Positions 3,415 to 10,492 of a DNA stretch of 29,603 nucleotides are shown here, one piece after another (within the stretch, counting starts at the first letter, position 1; every line of letters begins with the position of its first letter). Origin of the DNA: a virus; the IMG/VR virus record IMGVR_UViG_3300035670_000984, positions 1-29,603 of that record; one strand, written 5' to 3'. The translations under genes and the position numbers were made by a program. The notes beneath the pieces were generated by a model. The model had not been told where the DNA came from. It worked only from the letters and a program-made list of their open reading frames with translations, and searched no databases.

Positions 3415-4274
3415 AACTCAAGTTTTTCAGATTGGCCCTTTTTTATCATTGTCCTAATGGTTTTTTTGTAGGTATCAGCTTTTTTACATAAATAACTGTG
3501 ATTGTCAATTAATCGGTCAATTACATCTATAGCTATTGATTCAGAAATGTATCCAGCTGCTACGTATCCACCCATTGCATAAGATGCAGCACGAACTATA
3601 TAATGGCCTTCATTTACAATTTTATTAAACCTACTTGATATTATTTCAATAACCTTGTTTTCGTCATCATATGAACTGTAAATTCTGATATTCTCTGATT
3701 TTGCAGGTTTAGGTTCAATGTACTTGTCCGTGAAGTAATCAAAATCTGATTTCATGCACATCTCATAATCGTATGAATAAAAAAGAGGAAGTACCGGATT
3801 CTGGCAGGCCATATCAAAACCGTTGTATATCTTAAACTTTTGTTGGAGTGCCTTAAACCTTAACTTATATTCATCTATTGTTTTGCATTGAGCAACGGCC
3901 ACAAGACCACGAACGCCTTTACCTGAAGATGACAACCAAGATGCAATTACGAATGGATATTTTATTAATTCAAACTTTAATGAGATGGCATCATCATGGC
4001 TTAACTTATCGAAGTCAAAAGGCATAATTTGAGTAAAGTAATTAATATTTTCATACTTGCGCAATGAACAATTCACGGCTGGTGTAAAAAAAGGTAATTT
4101 CGCCTTTAATTTATGCTTAAGTTGCTCATCATTTTTATTTGCAGCTTGATGTATTTTTGTTATATGATTCTTTAATTCATTAGGTGGATTCCATATCATT
4201 GTTAACAATTCGCCTAATGAAATAAATTCCGCAGGTTCTGTAATGTAAACGCCACCTTTATAGAATGGTATCAT
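3411..4274 (-). CDS. Primase-like protein (VirE-N/BT4734 family)
   Basis: This 287-residue protein resembles the VirE-N/BT4734-like N-terminal domain common in Bacteroidota mobile elements. Recognisable parts are an acidic block in FDFDKLS (about residues 86-92), then ASWLSSSGKGVRGLVAV (about 110-126), and DMACQNPVLPLFYSYD (about 154-169). In this fold a conserved Asp pair and a serine/lysine-rich strand resemble the archaeo-eukaryotic primase active site. It is followed at once by the SF3-type helicase through an ATGA overlap, and together they look like the two halves of a primase-helicase. Its ATG overlaps the end of the nuclease-like gene by 17 nt. The primase activity is inferred from family and context. 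Confidence 0.7.
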   Translation of the reverse strand: MIPFYKGGVYITEPAEFISLGELLTMIWNPPNELKNHITKIHQAANKNDEQLKHKLKAKLPFFTPAVNCSLRKYENINYFTQIMPFDFDKLSHDDAISLKFELIKYPFVIASWLSSSGKGVRGLVAVAQCKTIDEYKLRFKALQQKFKIYNGFDMACQNPVLPLFYSYDYEMCMKSDFDYFTDKYIEPKPAKSENIRIYSSYDDENKVIEIISSRFNKIVNEGHYIVRAASYAMGGYVAAGYISESIAIDVIDRLIDNHSYLCKKADTYKKTIRTMIKKGQSEKLEL

Positions 4275-4836
4275 TTTTTGATATTTTTTTAATTATGTTA
4301 CTATAATTTATAGGATGTATTCCGTGATTATTGGCAGTCATATATCTTTTTGGCTCTGATTCAAATAATTCATAATTGCTAAATATAAATGAATAGCTTT
4401 TGTCGCTCCAACTCCTAACTTCACCTATATTAAATTCGCCTAAAAATCCATTCATTGAATGATGTGGTGAATCAGGAAAATGCCTATCAGTATGCCAATG
4501 TATTCCATCTTTATCTATTCTTGTTTCTTCTACCATAACAAAATATTTAAATGATAGTGGTGGTGCTATTAATATCGGTATATGTCTTGTATGGCCATAT
4601 ACTTGAAATTTCAATCCTGAATATCTCATTGCTTGTTTAATATACTTGCCAATTTCAGCACCTTTTTTGCGGTCAAATCGTTTGCACTCAATTCCAAAAA
4701 CATATTTTGGATTTTGTTTATGTACCAAAACCAAGTCTATTCTTGCACTATTGCAAGTAGATTTCACTTCACTTAACACATAAAATTGCATTTGAAAAAC
4801 TAACTTTAATTTTTCAACAAATTCTTTTTCAGTCAT
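4258..4836 (-). CDS. PD-(D/E)XK-like nuclease, unknown role
   Basis: I place the start at the ATG at 4836 (192 residues, MTEKEFVEKL...). The same frame continues up to a GTG at 4899, but that lies inside a strong RNA hairpin. The motif order IDLVLV (Asp), about 14 residues, GIECKR (Glu-x-Lys) matches the PD-(D/E)XK nuclease core, and a helix with an Ala-Met-Arg face (KYIKQAMRYS) follows. Later parts (IPILIAPPL, WHTDRHFPDSPHHS) are not recognised. The gene follows a structured RNA with a terminator-like hairpin, so expression may depend on read-through or on a start below the hairpin. The gene is strikingly AT-rich and precedes the primase-like gene with a 17-nt overlap. It could be a recombination nuclease, a Holliday-junction-type enzyme or a host-DNA nuclease. 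Confidence 0.55.
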   Translation of the reverse strand: MTEKEFVEKLKLVFQMQFYVLSEVKSTCNSARIDLVLVHKQNPKYVFGIECKRFDRKKGAEIGKYIKQAMRYSGLKFQVYGHTRHIPILIAPPLSFKYFVMVEETRIDKDGIHWHTDRHFPDSPHHSMNGFLGEFNIGEVRSWSDKSYSFIFSNYELFESEPKRYMTANNHGIHPINYSNIIKKISKNDTIL

Positions 4837-4856
4837 ATTTGCAGATTTTACAAAAC

Positions 4857-4945
4857 AAAAAACCCCAAAGTAATCGCAGCCTCTCACCTCTGCAACCACA
4901 ATGGGGTTTATTTCTTAATTCGGTATAACGTGAGAGGCCGAATGC
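4857..4945 (-). ncRNA. Structured small RNA or leader with complementary hairpin loops and a terminator
   Basis: Read on the minus strand, hairpin 1 pairs ATTCGG (4938-4943) with CCGAAT (4918-4923) and has the loop CCTCTCACGTTATA. Hairpin 2 pairs AAACCCCA (4902-4909) with TGGGGTTT (4860-4867), has a 2x2 internal loop of U residues, then a 10-bp inner stem (4890-4899 with 4870-4879) and the loop AGGTGAGAGG (4880-4889). The loops are complementary over 8 nt: CCTCTCAC and GTGAGAGG, or 9 bp counting the adjoining base of each stem. This allows a kissing loop or a competing long-range helix. Hairpin 2 is followed by T residues (4857-4862) and looks like an intrinsic terminator. A TATATTTG box at 4950-4957 puts a start near 4945. 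The segment is visibly richer in G+C than its flanks. It could be a free sRNA of about 90 nt or an attenuator for the genes at 4836-1876. Confidence 0.7.
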
Positions 4946-4949
4946 ATTG

Positions 4950-4957
4950 CAAATATA
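4950..4957 (-). promoter_or_regulatory. Promoter -7 box TATATTTG before the structured RNA
   Basis: The minus-strand 8-mer TATATTTG matches the Bacteroidota -7 consensus and sits about 7 nt before the first base of hairpin 1 of the RNA at 4857-4945. It lies just after the stop of the PAPS-reductase-like gene at 4964. No clear -33 TTTG is visible. Position, rather than a full two-element match, supports it. Confidence 0.55.
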
Positions 4958-4963
4958 CTAAAA

Positions 4964-6187
4964 TTATTTAATGTTTAACTCTATGTTAGATGCTATTTTA
5001 CGCTTATTTTGAATTTCTTTAAATTGATAATAGGCATCTGATTTCGGTTGTGTTTGTCCTAATCCTTTGCACCAATAATCATTGCGTAAAATAACCTTAC
5101 AAAGTCTTCGCCATGAAGGCACCCAACATTTGTTTTCGAGGTCTTCAGGTGCTTCATCTGGAATTGATAGATACCCACGGTCTTGCCAACTTTTAATAAA
5201 CTTCACAAAACGTTCTCTGTAATGCAAACTTGTTTTTTCTGGCATTGTCTGAAGTAATAAATTACAAAAAGATTTCCAAGTATGCCCGTCTGGTTTTACA
5301 ATTTTATTATATCCAGTAATATTTCCATTTTCTTGAATGTAAAGTGTCCCAGAATTGACTCCATTAACTCTTGATACTACTTTATACCATGTTTCTGGTT
5401 CTAATATATGATATAACCATAGACCACGCCTTTGATCATCACCATATGGCTGGCATAATCTTTGCTGCGATATTTTTACACCTGCCCTACTCATTTTATC
5501 ATAAACTCTATTGTATATTAAATCATTATTTTTCCCGTGATAAATCCAAATATCTTCTGTTTTCCAATCATAAATTGGATATACATTATAAAGATTTGAT
5601 GCTATCAATGTAGTCCATTTTTTATTATTATAGCATAAACCTTCCTTGTTTGAAACAATTGCCCTATACCTGTGTAAAGATTCATCGGCCCTTATGCCTA
5701 TTAATGCAGCAGTTAATTCTCCTTTTGAATACCATTTGCCAAATAAGACCATAAACTCTTCAAATTCCATTTTAGGTACATAAAAATCATATTGATCTAA
5801 ATTGGCAGCCAAATATGGTTTTTCTCTTACCCATAAATCTTTTTTAGTTTCATCCCAACATATCCACCTTGGTTCATAATTTGATACTGCATTTCTTAAT
5901 AGCAATTCAGCACAAACCCAATGCAATTCAATATTATCTTTGTATGTATTAACTATATTATTAATGTGTTTAATAGTATCATTGTATTGTGCCTCTAAAT
6001 CAATTATTAAAAATCCTACCTTACGTTTTCTTTTTTGAGCCTCTTGTAAAACCAAATGAGTCATTACTGTTGAATCTTTACCTCCACTAAATGAAACATA
6101 AATTTTATTGAAATTATCAAATATATATGATATTCTTTTTTTTGATGCTTCAAGTACATCGATATCTAAATAATGTTTAGTTGCCAT
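4964..6187 (-). CDS. IbrA-like PAPS-reductase-family protein (DUF3440-like)
   Basis: The 407-residue product has the PP-loop ATP-binding motif SGGKDST at residues 34-40, within IYVSFSGGKDSTVMTHL, the hallmark of the PAPS reductase/ATP pyrophosphatase superfamily. Further features typical of the DUF3440/IbrA group are GIRADES, a KTEDIWIY segment, QRLCQPYGDDQRRGLW and the C-terminal block PSWRRLCKVILRNDYWC. It starts one base after the stop of the ParB-like gene, reproducing the IbrB-IbrA gene pair. In E. coli, IbrA and IbrB act together as activators of prophage genes; their chemistry is not settled. The fold adenylates or transfers sulfur on substrates, as DndC does in DNA phosphorothioation, so action on nucleic acid is plausible but inferred. 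The gene is notably AT-rich. Confidence 0.8.
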   Translation of the reverse strand: MATKHYLDIDVLEASKKRISYIFDNFNKIYVSFSGGKDSTVMTHLVLQEAQKRKRKVGFLIIDLEAQYNDTIKHINNIVNTYKDNIELHWVCAELLLRNAVSNYEPRWICWDETKKDLWVREKPYLAANLDQYDFYVPKMEFEEFMVLFGKWYSKGELTAALIGIRADESLHRYRAIVSNKEGLCYNNKKWTTLIASNLYNVYPIYDWKTEDIWIYHGKNNDLIYNRVYDKMSRAGVKISQQRLCQPYGDDQRRGLWLYHILEPETWYKVVSRVNGVNSGTLYIQENGNITGYNKIVKPDGHTWKSFCNLLLQTMPEKTSLHYRERFVKFIKSWQDRGYLSIPDEAPEDLENKCWVPSWRRLCKVILRNDYWCKGLGQTQPKSDAYYQFKEIQNKRKIASNIELNIK

Positions 6188-6188
6188 A

Positions 6189-7316
6189 TTAATAAATATT
6201 TACTTGTCTACCAATTGATAATGCCTCTTCAATAGTCAATTCATCAAATCCATTGCGTTTATTCCAAATATTTAAATATTCAAGTGCTGTGTTATTAGCA
6301 ATGTTTTGTTGTTCATTAGTCAACAGATTGAATCCAGAACAAAATTTAGATGGCACACCGGTTGCATAACACATTGACGCCTGACCTAACCAAGAAATTC
6401 GATTCATAGCTTTATTTGTCAAGTAATGTTCGCATGAATGCTTCCATTCTGTAATTACTTTTTCAAGAGTTTCTCTAAATAAATTATCATTTGATAAAAA
6501 TTCAGCATATGCAAGTTCGCATTGTTCACCTGTCATACCATCTTTTTTAGATGCATAAAAACCGGCTTTATGACATTCCCATTTATCATATGTATGGAAT
6601 ATTCTATTTGGGTCAGATGTATTAACTGTCCTATAATCAGCACTTAAAATTTCTGTATCATCAATATCTTCATATGAATTAATGTAATCAGAAGATTCCC
6701 AGGATTTACTAAATGCTTCATCCTTAAATATTTCTGATAAACCAGTAATTTGACATAATCTTAAAATTTCTTCTTGATCCATTCCAAGTTCTTTGGCAAT
6801 TCGTTCATTTTTCCAATTTCTTGCTTTTAATTCAAGTACAATTTCACTCATTGCATCAACTTGATGTTTTCCTCTGGCCCTATTATGCCGTATTGTAGAT
6901 GCTATTCTATCATTTTTGTCGGATTGTTCTTTGCGGATAATAACCGTTGGTAAGTATCCATTTATCCTTTGTTTTACTATTTTGCTTTCCTTACCAACTC
7001 TGTTACGGTGAAAACCATCAATAACCTCATATTTGCTTTTAGTTTCTGAAAACCAAGTAACGATTGGTTGAGTATAACCATCATTCATAATTGATATTTC
7101 AAGTAATTCCATCTCTGGAGGAGCAACTTTATTTGGATTATAATCATTGGCAACTACTTCATCGTTTTTTTGCCATATTACCAAATCCACTGGCTCATTT
7201 TTAAATGGTGAATGTTCATGTATTAATTTTCTTAATTCATTAATAGTTTCAACTTTTAAATTAAAGTCATCAATTGATTTTAAATGTTGTTCAATACTGT
7301 TTTTTAAATCTATCAT
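6189..7316 (-). CDS. IbrB-like ParB-domain protein
   Basis: This 375-residue protein contains a ParB/sulfiredoxin-type domain at about residues 50-150. ANDYNPNKVAPPEMELL matches the ParB box I region, and YEVIDGFHRNRV the box II region with its Gly-x-x-Arg core. An HTH-like segment follows at about 165-195 (NERIAKELGMDQEEILRLCQ). The C-terminal half has no recognised motif. The gene is immediately upstream of the PAPS-reductase-like gene with one base between them, the IbrB-IbrA arrangement. ParB-like domains bind nucleotides (CTPase in ParB) and related DGQHR domains occur in DndB. It begins its own transcription unit after a terminator at 7387-7422 and behind an 18-bp palindrome at 7364-7381. 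AT-rich composition sets the pair apart from flanking genes and suggests acquisition as a cassette. Confidence 0.8.
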   Translation of the reverse strand: MIDLKNSIEQHLKSIDDFNLKVETINELRKLIHEHSPFKNEPVDLVIWQKNDEVVANDYNPNKVAPPEMELLEISIMNDGYTQPIVTWFSETKSKYEVIDGFHRNRVGKESKIVKQRINGYLPTVIIRKEQSDKNDRIASTIRHNRARGKHQVDAMSEIVLELKARNWKNERIAKELGMDQEEILRLCQITGLSEIFKDEAFSKSWESSDYINSYEDIDDTEILSADYRTVNTSDPNRIFHTYDKWECHKAGFYASKKDGMTGEQCELAYAEFLSNDNLFRETLEKVITEWKHSCEHYLTNKAMNRISWLGQASMCYATGVPSKFCSGFNLLTNEQQNIANNTALEYLNIWNKRNGFDELTIEEALSIGRQVNIY

Positions 7317-7346: not shown

Positions 7347-7381
7347 GATTGTTTAATGATTGTAAATGATTGCAATCATTT
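7347..7381. promoter_or_regulatory. Palindromic operator candidate before the IbrBA pair
   Basis: AAATGATTGCAATCATTT (7364-7381) is a perfect 18-bp palindrome. Its half-site AATGATTG occurs again as a direct copy at 7355-7362, 10 bp away, and a weaker GATTGTTT lies at 7347-7354. It lies 48 nt upstream of the ATG at 7316 and just after the preceding terminator. Its size and place fit a dimeric repressor or activator site controlling the IbrB/IbrA unit. No TAnnTTTG box is visible here. Confidence 0.55.
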
Positions 7382-7386
7382 TTTTT

Positions 7387-7422
7387 AAAAACCACCACCA
7401 ACATCTTTATGCCGGTAGTGGT
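7387..7422 (-). terminator. Intrinsic terminator ending the early operon
   Basis: On the minus strand ACCACTACC (7414-7422) pairs with GGTGGTGGT (7391-7399), a 9-bp stem with one G-U pair, followed by TTTTT. It lies 32 nt after the stop of the 81-residue gene at 7454 and separates the operon that starts near 13.1 kb from the IbrBA unit. Confidence 0.75.
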
Positions 7423-7453
7423 CAATCACATGAAAATTTAAAATCGCAAAAGT

Positions 7454-7699: not shown

Positions 7700-8177
7700 T
7701 GTTAAGTTGTTGTGTTAAGTTATCCCAATAATTCAAAAAATCCTCCATCGACCGCACGATGATGTACACCCCACCGGATCGCTCTATTTGCTGCTGGTAT
7801 ACCTTCTGATATGTTGATTGTCGGTCTTTACCTATTTTCACTTCTACCTTAAGAGAAACGCCTGCGATTGTAGCGGAAATGTCAGCAGAACCACGCTGAC
7901 CCGATGTCGGTATGTACGTCATTGATCCGATTGTTTTTGTACGCCCAACAACATCCGTTACATTCTTACGCTTGTCAATCACTCGGCCCATTGTGTTAAT
8001 GCGCTCGGCATGGTAACCGCTCATGTTTACCCAGTCAATAATTAACCTGGTCAAACCGTTCGCCGTCGCATCTGATGGAATCTTGACGCTGCGTACGTGA
8101 TCCGGTAGGTTCGGGTACTTTCGCCTGGATTCTGCAAGGTATAACGCTTGAACTCGTTGTCGTGTTTCTTTGGTCAT
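7680..8177 (-). CDS. VRR-NUC-like nuclease
   Basis: In this 165-residue protein the C-terminal half carries the VRR-NUC/PD-(D/E)XK pattern. G-S-A-D (residues about 96-99, GQRGSADISAT) supplies the catalytic Asp, KVEVKIG (about 109-115) supplies E-x-K, and a helix with YQQQIERSGGVYIIV completes the fold, matching the Q-x3-Q/R and Gly-Gly spacing of phage VRR-NUC domains. Such enzymes act on branched DNA or ends during phage recombination. The N-terminal 60 residues are basic. It overlaps both neighbours (ATGA with the methyltransferase-like gene, 20 nt with the next gene), so it belongs to the early operon. The G+C content is higher than in the modification genes nearby. Confidence 0.7.
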   Translation of the reverse strand: MTKETRQRVQALYLAESRRKYPNLPDHVRSVKIPSDATANGLTRLIIDWVNMSGYHAERINTMGRVIDKRKNVTDVVGRTKTIGSMTYIPTSGQRGSADISATIAGVSLKVEVKIGKDRQSTYQKVYQQQIERSGGVYIIVRSMEDFLNYWDNLTQQLNNGQSNT

Positions 8178-8848
8178 AGGTTAATGTTTAAAATATATTC
8201 ACTCCATTGTTGTGCCATTGCTTTAGCAATGCCTAGAAATGTTTTTGACCTTACTTTGCTTCGTTCATCGCCTTTTAAACTCCTTGCTTCTTTAAACCAC
8301 AATGGTTGTCTTTTTTTCTTGCCTGTTTTGCTATCTATCCATTCAAAAAACTCGCCTTTGTCAGTATGTGTTACCACGTCATCAAATAAATTTGGTGCTG
8401 CATTATGATATAATGGTGGCAAGTTTTTCAACCATAGGCACGTTGTTTTTTGCGCCTTGTCTCCAAAATAATACGGTTGAATGACTTGTGTTGGTTTTTT
8501 ATAAATTTTACTCATTATACCAATTGGATTCTCAACTGCAATATGCTTAATTGGAGCATTTACAATCTTCATAAAAAAATCTATGCCTTCTTGTTGCCTT
8601 CCATCTTTTCTTTTTTGCTCAAACCAAGCAGCACCACTTACAGCCAAATGAGTACAAGGTGGGAAGGCTATCATTGCAATATACTTACCGCTATAAGCTT
8701 CTTGAATTGCATCGCCTTCAATATGCCAATCTGGACAACCTCCAGAACACGGTTGTATATCACAACTATATGCCTCTAATCCTAATGATCTAAATTCTTT
8801 TGTTACAGCTTGGCTTTCTTCACAAGCAACAAGTATTCTTAGAGTCAT
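8174..8848 (-). CDS. Divergent DNA C5-cytosine methyltransferase-like protein
   Basis: The 224-residue product begins with an AdoMet-binding-type strand, ILVACEESQAV (residues about 4-14), and has GLEAYSCDIQPC with the acidic motif II position. FPPCTHLAVSG (about 62-72) holds the Pro-Cys catalytic motif IV, and the motif VI position reads ENP rather than the usual ENV. The C-terminal helix KTFLGIAKAMAQQW resembles motif X. The usual target-recognition domain and the QxRxR motif VIII are missing and the length is about 100 residues short of a standard enzyme. This family is common in phages and is usually annotated as DNA cytosine methyltransferase. It could protect phage DNA from restriction; activity with so little recognition domain is uncertain. 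ATGA overlaps link it to both neighbours. Confidence 0.7.
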   Translation of the reverse strand: MTLRILVACEESQAVTKEFRSLGLEAYSCDIQPCSGGCPDWHIEGDAIQEAYSGKYIAMIAFPPCTHLAVSGAAWFEQKRKDGRQQEGIDFFMKIVNAPIKHIAVENPIGIMSKIYKKPTQVIQPYYFGDKAQKTTCLWLKNLPPLYHNAAPNLFDDVVTHTDKGEFFEWIDSKTGKKKRQPLWFKEARSLKGDERSKVRSKTFLGIAKAMAQQWSEYILNINL

Positions 8849-9775: not shown

Positions 9776-10492
9776 TTAAAATAATTCTAATTGAATATCA
9801 GGTTTAAAACTTGCATCGTAATTTTTGTTTTTAGTTTTTGGATATGGTTGTGATTTGTAAATCATGTCTTCAATAAGTTGTTTTTTATTATTTGCATTAA
9901 TAAAAATATAACGGTGTTTTGGTTTTTGTTTTATAATTTCACCACCAACAGCTAATATATTGTCTTTCCAATGCAAATCTTCATTGTATAATTTACCTAA
10001 CATTTTACGAGTAAATTCAATATTCATATTTCTGCCGTGATATTTTTTACCAAACAATATGAAATCCATGCTTTTGTTTTTTGGTTCAGCCAATCCACAG
10101 TAGATAAAATTTGTTGCTTGATAAATATATCCACAATGATTATTATTTATATCCGCATAACTTACAATTACATTTGGTTTTGGTAATAATTTCAAACAAC
10201 CACTAACAAAAAATGAAGTTAAATTTTTTTCATGATTATCGTTTAAAACTAATCTACTTAATTCCATTACGTTAATATTATGTTTATTATTAAATAATTT
10301 ACCTCCGTTGTTCCAAAATCTTGAAGGAGAAGGAGAAAATACACATACACCTATAATAATATTATTATCATCATATAAGCCAAAAACATACATCATAATT
10401 GGAGTTCTGCGAGCATAATGTTTTTTTATTAACCATTGTTTCGCAGTAAAATTATTTATTGATTTTATTTTATATTTTAATTTAATACTCAT
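9776..10492 (-). CDS. Mom-like DNA adenine modification protein
   Basis: The 238-residue product matches the pattern of the Mom family (phage Mu Mom, a GNAT-fold enzyme that converts adenine in phage DNA to a carbamoylmethyl derivative and so blocks restriction). Recognisable blocks are LIKKHYARRTPIMMYVFGLYD (residues about 21-41, split across the first strand), GVCVFSPSPSRFW, ELSRLVLND, a segment around SFFVSGCLKLL, then VSYADINNNHCGYIYQATNFIYCG, whose Ser-Tyr-Ala-Asp and Tyr-Gln-Ala-Thr-Asn are typical. The gene is strikingly AT-rich compared with the exonuclease gene 3 nt upstream, which suggests separate acquisition. In Mu, mom is tightly controlled; here the only visible regulatory structure is downstream. 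I am fairly confident of the family; the exact modification is unknown. Confidence 0.75.
   Translation of the reverse strand: MSIKLKYKIKSINNFTAKQWLIKKHYARRTPIMMYVFGLYDDNNIIIGVCVFSPSPSRFWNNGGKLFNNKHNINVMELSRLVLNDNHEKNLTSFFVSGCLKLLPKPNVIVSYADINNNHCGYIYQATNFIYCGLAEPKNKSMDFILFGKKYHGRNMNIEFTRKMLGKLYNEDLHWKDNILAVGGEIIKQKPKHRYIFINANNKKQLIEDMIYKSQPYPKTKNKNYDASFKPDIQLELF

Follow-up and report, generated by a model that had tools for sequence, protein, structure and literature searches.

The IbrB and IbrA genes of the phage fragment studied here form one co-oriented unit, and our analysis suggests, at about even probability, that this pair is an ATP-dependent DNA hypermodification system. The proposal is built on sequence, namely on obligate pairing, preserved PP-loop motifs, predicted folds, a genomic slot equivalent to that of a known DNA-modification system and modular third genes. 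The window, i.e., the whole stretch of DNA analysed, is a 29,603-base IMG/VR virus record and represents a Bacteroidota-type tailed-phage contig. Nearly all of its genes lie on the minus strand, with tape-measure, tail and adaptor genes in the right part and DNA-processing genes in the left part, in agreement with the phage context given in a preliminary description of this DNA. The features of the pair and its surroundings are as follows:

7394-7423 (approximate limits), minus strand: terminator-like hairpin 5' of the pair, at the end of the preceding operon (z -5.8)
7365-7380, no strand assigned: perfect palindrome of 16 bp, AATGATTGCAATCATT, 5' of IbrB, unconserved in relatives
6189-7316, minus strand: IbrB, ORF of 375 aa (ParB_N, phrog_2159)
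6189-6597, minus strand: helical C-domain of IbrB (residues ~240-375), a separate gene elsewhere (loci L148, L173, L185 and probably L146)
6188-6188, minus strand: one-base spacer between the IbrB stop and the IbrA ATG
4964-6187, minus strand: IbrA, ORF of 407 aa (PAPS_reduct and DUF3440)
4864-4950, minus strand: structured RNA or terminator 3' of IbrA, a TTCGG..CCGAA hairpin followed by a terminator-like stem

By every sequence criterion tested, the window pair is a member of the IbrA/IbrB family (ybdN/ybdM in E. coli K-12), which is already known and functionally unexplained. IbrA matches Pfam PAPS_reduct (6.5e-17) and DUF3440 (1.5e-34) and contains an intact PP-loop, and the adjacent, co-oriented IbrB is matched strongly by phrog_2159 (5.5e-67) and weakly by Pfam ParB_N (23.9 bits, below the cut-off of 26.3). 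The preliminary identification of the pair was therefore right, as was its placement of the two genes one base apart, around position 6188; this is also the commonest spacing in relatives, seen at 78 viral loci out of 144 when duplicates are counted. The window pair resembles E. coli IbrA/IbrB and K-12 YbdN/YbdM (COG3969 and a ParB-like protein) in family membership, adjacency and common strand. By comparison with the E. coli-type loci, in which IbrA comes first and IbrB has ~214 aa, the window has IbrB first, a fused C-domain and a location in the phage early region.

The linkage of the two genes was surveyed with 191 non-redundant full-length IbrA proteins from viral contigs, bacterial genomes, and phage and plasmid records. 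At all 187 loci with a visible neighbourhood, IbrB shares the strand of IbrA and is no more than 669 bp away, and at 175 of them it is within 300 bp. Of the remaining four IbrA genes, three start at most 251 bases from the contig end towards which IbrB would lie, and the one from phage Hendrix (L158) closes a linear record. IbrB precedes IbrA in the window's clade and follows it in most bacteria; adjacency has therefore outlasted the change of order. Among 247 Bacteroidota genomes, a true IbrA occurs in three, and an IbrB scoring above 250 bits occurs in the same three, the next best score being 41.5 bits (Fisher 4e-7). Furthermore, the pairwise distances of IbrA and IbrB correlate (Spearman 0.80; permutation maximum 0.19). 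In many relatives of the window the pair is ~65-79% identical, whereas the still recognizable flanking genes mostly share 23-59%. This difference suggests either transfer of the pair between phages or a tighter constraint on the pair than on its flanks. A search for empty sites with the window's primase-like flank genes returned no or one viral relative. Carriers include bacteria of several phyla, one archaeal assembly, phages both lytic and temperate, prophages and plasmids, and in phage loci the pair is placed among DNA replication and recombination genes. On a contig labelled Heimdallarchaeota, from an archaeal metagenome assembly, IbrA and IbrB are adjacent (L217:2608-4492), with an IbrA ~46% identical to that of the window.

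The pair had earlier been viewed as a self-contained cassette, AT-richer than both flanks, and composition supports this view in part only. The two genes have GC contents of 30.5/30.3%, compared with 40-46% in the upstream neighbours and 30.2%, 32.8% and 32.8% in the downstream neighbours, so that the contrast holds upstream and fails downstream; the Mom gene described below is lower (24.1%). The argument from AT richness is weak because low GC is common to the downstream neighbours, the GC of the pair tracks that of its flanks among relatives (r 0.86), and the palindrome is unconserved. What stands is the behaviour as one unit, which is supported on other grounds by linkage and by identity relative to the flanks. 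The palindrome AATGATTGCAATCATT is indeed present at 7365, as one of four exact 16-mers within the window, but no exact match was found in relatives, and any 14-bp palindrome 5' of IbrB was seen in only 7 of 134. The two RNA elements proposed to bound the pair fared better: the upstream terminator is borne out by the hairpin near 7394-7423, which no shuffle equalled (0/200), and the hairpins at 4860-4955 downstream also fold better than chance (z -2.7, 3/200 shuffles). In the downstream element, TATATTTG (TAnnTTTG-like) immediately precedes the TTCGG..CCGAA hairpin, whose loop CCTCTCAC, read directly off the sequence, could base-pair with GTGAGAGG, its complement in the loop of the element's own terminator-like hairpin; the two loops may form a kissing pair. 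Region 4864-4950 is possibly a small structured RNA of two hairpins between IbrA and a nuclease-like ORF. No Rfam family was matched in the window or in a separate scan of 4800-5000, and an 18-base stretch of this RNA found no exact match in relatives. The ORF itself (4258-4899, minus strand) contains a PD-(D/E)XK-like IECKR stretch and has no Pfam or PHROG match; a downstream ATG is its more likely start, because the listed GTG overlaps the RNA hairpin.

IbrB comprises an N-domain of the ParB/Srx fold (~42-150), an HTH (~168-190), a linker and a helical C-domain (~240-366), with the motifs DGFHR at residues 100-104 and TIRHNRARG at residues 141-149. DG[FY]HR is present in 185 of 187 family members, and the GERR of ParB in none of the 187. 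In our reading of the alignment, DG[FY]HR would occupy the GERR position, and NRA[RK]G that of the second ParB motif. The best structural matches of the N-domain and HTH are Noc, KorB and ParB with nucleotide (ParB-CDP), the Foldseek matches concerning mainly the N-domain, and profile searches match ParB and Noc; a PDB sequence search with the single IbrB returned only Noc (E 0.09). Thus, IbrB has the predicted N-domain and HTH fold in common with the ParB/Noc/KorB CTP clamps, and differs from them in carrying DG[FY]HR in place of GERR and, in the window's clade, an extra helical domain. Its top viral structural match is the cupin-ParB fusion of phage Gaia.

The extra part of the window IbrB amounts to ~160 residues, in which the predicted model places confident helices after a poorly predicted linker; the C-domain has no match in Pfam or PHROG. 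Its counterpart in a Pseudomonas phage is a separate gene between IbrB and IbrA (26% identity, E 2e-9), and such a gene lies between the two in Omnitrophota and Burkholderiales contigs also and probably exists in a Microcystis phage. A GNAT-like gene is inserted at L162, L198 and L215 (L198 and L215 judged from sequence), and a nuclease-like gene occupies the insert position in L032. In Pseudoalteromonas and Mycobacterium (Gaia, Nebkiss) phages, an ectoine-synthase-type cupin lies between IbrA and IbrB (L154:7311-7703) or is fused to the N-terminus of IbrB (L152:7308-8207). Since a helical gene, a GNAT, a cupin or a nuclease-like gene can fill one position, the third component is exchangeable, and the GNAT and cupin inserts could serve another pathway. 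In addition, methyltransferase genes accompany the pair at L156 and L157; phages of Arthrobacter and Bacillus have extra ParB and methyltransferase genes around IbrA, and Microbacterium phage Hendrix (L158) has there a glycosyltransferase, a methyltransferase and an acetyltransferase (GNAT) gene. Against hypermodification, methyltransferases are found near only 5 viral loci, and the enterobacterial chromosomal ybdNM-type loci adjoin a LysR gene, not modification or restriction genes. The window itself encodes a Mom-family DNA modification protein (9776-10492, minus strand; PF25680, 1.5e-35), whose gene is more AT-rich than any other there, and a DNA methyltransferase (phrog_757) at 8174-8848. 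A Mom search of three related contigs gave no match, the positive control being likewise unmatched.

The PP-loop of the window IbrA is SGGKDS, at residues 34-39. Across the family, S[GAS]GKDS is retained in all 191 proteins and G-x-R-x-x-E-[SA]-x-x-R in 187 of them, and P204, D207-W208, D212, Y229 and R243 vary little or not at all. The structures nearest to the AlphaFold2 model of IbrA (pLDDT 87, pTM 0.79) are FAD synthase (Z 14.8), APS reductase (13.9) and CysD (13.8), which are effectively tied, and in a profile search PAPS reductase (7e-7) comes after both CysD (2.8e-10) and FAD synthase (7e-10); the single IbrA sequence had no match in a PDB sequence search. CysD and FAD synthase adenylate an oxyanion, and because they are the nearest relatives, adenylation is the most economical chemistry for IbrA. 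IbrA is probably an adenylating enzyme, a prediction for which the fold match alone is insufficient.

A link to DNA modification comes from one phage subfamily, the Bclasvirinae mycobacteriophages, in which the genes left of the terminase (TerL) occupy a common slot:

Arbiter (L165): ParB-DpdA-QueC-QueD-QueE-FolE
Heath (L166) and LilMcDreamy (L167): ParB-DpdA and unknown genes
Knocker (L168): ParB-FolE-DpdA-...-QueCDE-FolE
Mikota (L169): none
Bernardo (L155): ParB-hyp-hyp-IbrA-IbrB

In Bernardo, gp1 is a ParB with homology to the gp1 that adjoins DpdA in its relatives (46% and 58% identity), and gp4 and gp5 are IbrA and IbrB (phrog_2302, 8e-154; phrog_2159, 8e-91). The simplest reading is that one DNA-modification module has been swapped for another beside a conserved ParB, bearing in mind that our DpdA search of phage records, made with one DpdA or Pfam TGT query, misses annotated phage DpdAs, a limit that extends to Bernardo's status. 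Rosebush, of the Arbiter type, is reported to carry dPreQ0 at ~28% of guanines (PMC6884629), and Bernardo does not appear to be among the phages whose DNA was analysed there. Like Dpd (7-deazaguanine), in which DpdA is joined by DpdB, the IbrA/IbrB pair would combine a nucleotide-modifying enzyme with a ParB-family partner (PMC12839542), the enzymes differing in that IbrA has a PP-loop and DpdA is a TGT. Neither DpdA (TGT-family) nor preQ0 genes were seen among the window proteins scanned, a subset of the ORFs of a fragment. A ParBc domain likewise frequently neighbours CmoX, the AMP-forming enzyme of the CmoX/CmoY phage cytosine hypermodification (PMC12783734); that system uses an asparagine-synthetase type ligase and a carboxymethyltransferase, neither of which is seen here. 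In Fusobacterium phage phiFN37 (L153:10748-12468), a second ParB-like gene lies directly 5' of a queuine tRNA-ribosyltransferase, separate from IbrA-IbrB.

We infer from these observations that IbrA and IbrB may form a physical complex with DNA as its substrate, and would constitute one obligatory two-component hypermodification module. IbrB would bind DNA and nucleotide through its ParB/Noc/KorB-like fold and HTH, placing IbrA on the phage DNA. The PP-loop of IbrA would then adenylate an oxyanion (carboxylate or phosphate) on a base or nucleotide, yielding PPi and an AMP-activated group open to attack by a nucleophile. The variable third part, which is the helical C-domain here and a GNAT, ectoine-synthase-type cupin or methyltransferase elsewhere, would be the source of the added group or tailor it. 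The phage would probably benefit by the shielding of its DNA from host nucleases.

The main rival, which we regard as clearly less probable, is that the pair is a transcription co-activator, IbrB acting as a KorB/Noc-like nucleotide-gated, promoter-regulating clamp and IbrA as its enzymatic or sensory partner. The sole known phenotype is regulatory, namely activation of the prophage eib genes by IbrA/IbrB in E. coli ECOR-9 (Sandt 2002, as cited in PMC6008420), and the HTH of IbrB and its structural matches to KorB, Noc and ParB-CDP suit such a role. In addition, the chromosomal ybdNM operon of K-12 is under regulation, with YbdO as its repressor (PMC9068703), and the IbrAB of phages FCL-2 and 6H have been described as possible virulence regulators (PMC4541368). 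However, the pair also occurs in phages described as having no lysogeny genes (FCL-2), it occupies the DNA-modification slot of Bclasvirinae, IbrA keeps its PP-loop and other residues unchanged from phylum to phylum, and the GNAT and cupin inserts suit an enzyme pathway better. Moreover, DNA modification could itself change transcription.

Two further accounts appear unlikely. The pair could act in defence, counter-defence or exclusion, with the ParB/Srx protein depleting nucleotides or nicking DNA and leaving no stable DNA mark. ParB/Srx proteins are able to nick DNA and hydrolyse NTP (PMC12839542), and the pair is found on plasmids and prophages; it is also common in phages that lack lysogeny genes, and IbrB has no match in PADLOC. 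The other, disfavoured account is Dnd/Ssp-like phosphorothioation with IbrA and IbrB as the equivalents of DndC and DndB, a PP-loop enzyme and a ParB-superfamily protein being common to both systems. DG[FY]HR of IbrB resembles the DGQHR motif of DndB, IbrA has weak DndC/BrxP HMM matches (1.6e-7 to 2.6e-7), and two cysteines persist in ~95% of the 191 IbrA proteins (C245 in 180, C373 in 183). These two cysteines are lost in mycobacteriophage and some Firmicute-phage proteins, which makes sulfur chemistry unlikely for the whole family and somewhat less unlikely for the window's branch, and the 191 proteins have no universal cysteine, only three of them containing CxxC, whereas DndC needs Fe-S cysteines (PMC11662687). 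The families differ, no DndB model matches IbrB, and neither DndA/D/E nor a desulfurase is named among the scanned window neighbours (a fragment record and a subset of its ORFs). Of the earlier suggestion that the pair may modify or sense DNA, perhaps by sulfur or adenylation, the Dnd branch, with its marginal DndC match (1.6e-7), thus fares poorly, and adenylation is the best-supported reading given the Dpd slot replacement and the adenylyltransferase relatives.

Modification of tRNA or another RNA by a TilS/NcsA/TtuA-like PP-loop enzyme is a shade more doubtful: the fold is common to TilS/MesJ (1ni5, Z 11.9) and NcsA (6scy, Z 10.9), at a similarity below that to the adenylyltransferases, the obligate ParB/HTH partner suggests DNA, and tRNA genes are absent from the window. 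It is highly improbable that IbrA serves the host's sulfate assimilation as an auxiliary metabolic PAPS reductase, the role implied by the Pfam match and by frequent phage annotations, since IbrA, while sharing the fold and PP-loop of PAPS/APS reductases, CysD and FAD synthase, has the reductases' catalytic ECGxH in none of 191 proteins and adds a DUF3440 extension and an obligate ParB partner.

Extended to the family, the DNA-modification reading becomes more tentative: IbrA/IbrB may represent an undescribed, adenylation-dependent DNA hypermodification whose exchangeable third component sets the chemistry, and E. coli IbrAB and K-12 YbdNM may be DNA-modifying enzymes whose mark alters transcription. 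No paper proposing DNA modification for IbrA/IbrB was found in the literature searched, subscription journals lying outside it. The customary labels of IbrA/IbrB and YbdN/YbdM have long been co-activator or PAPS reductase. If true, this proposal would add a widespread DNA modification chemistry, present in bacteria of several phyla, in one archaeal assembly, in phages both lytic and temperate and in plasmids, would explain an old regulatory phenotype and would assign a role to an operon on the E. coli K-12 chromosome.
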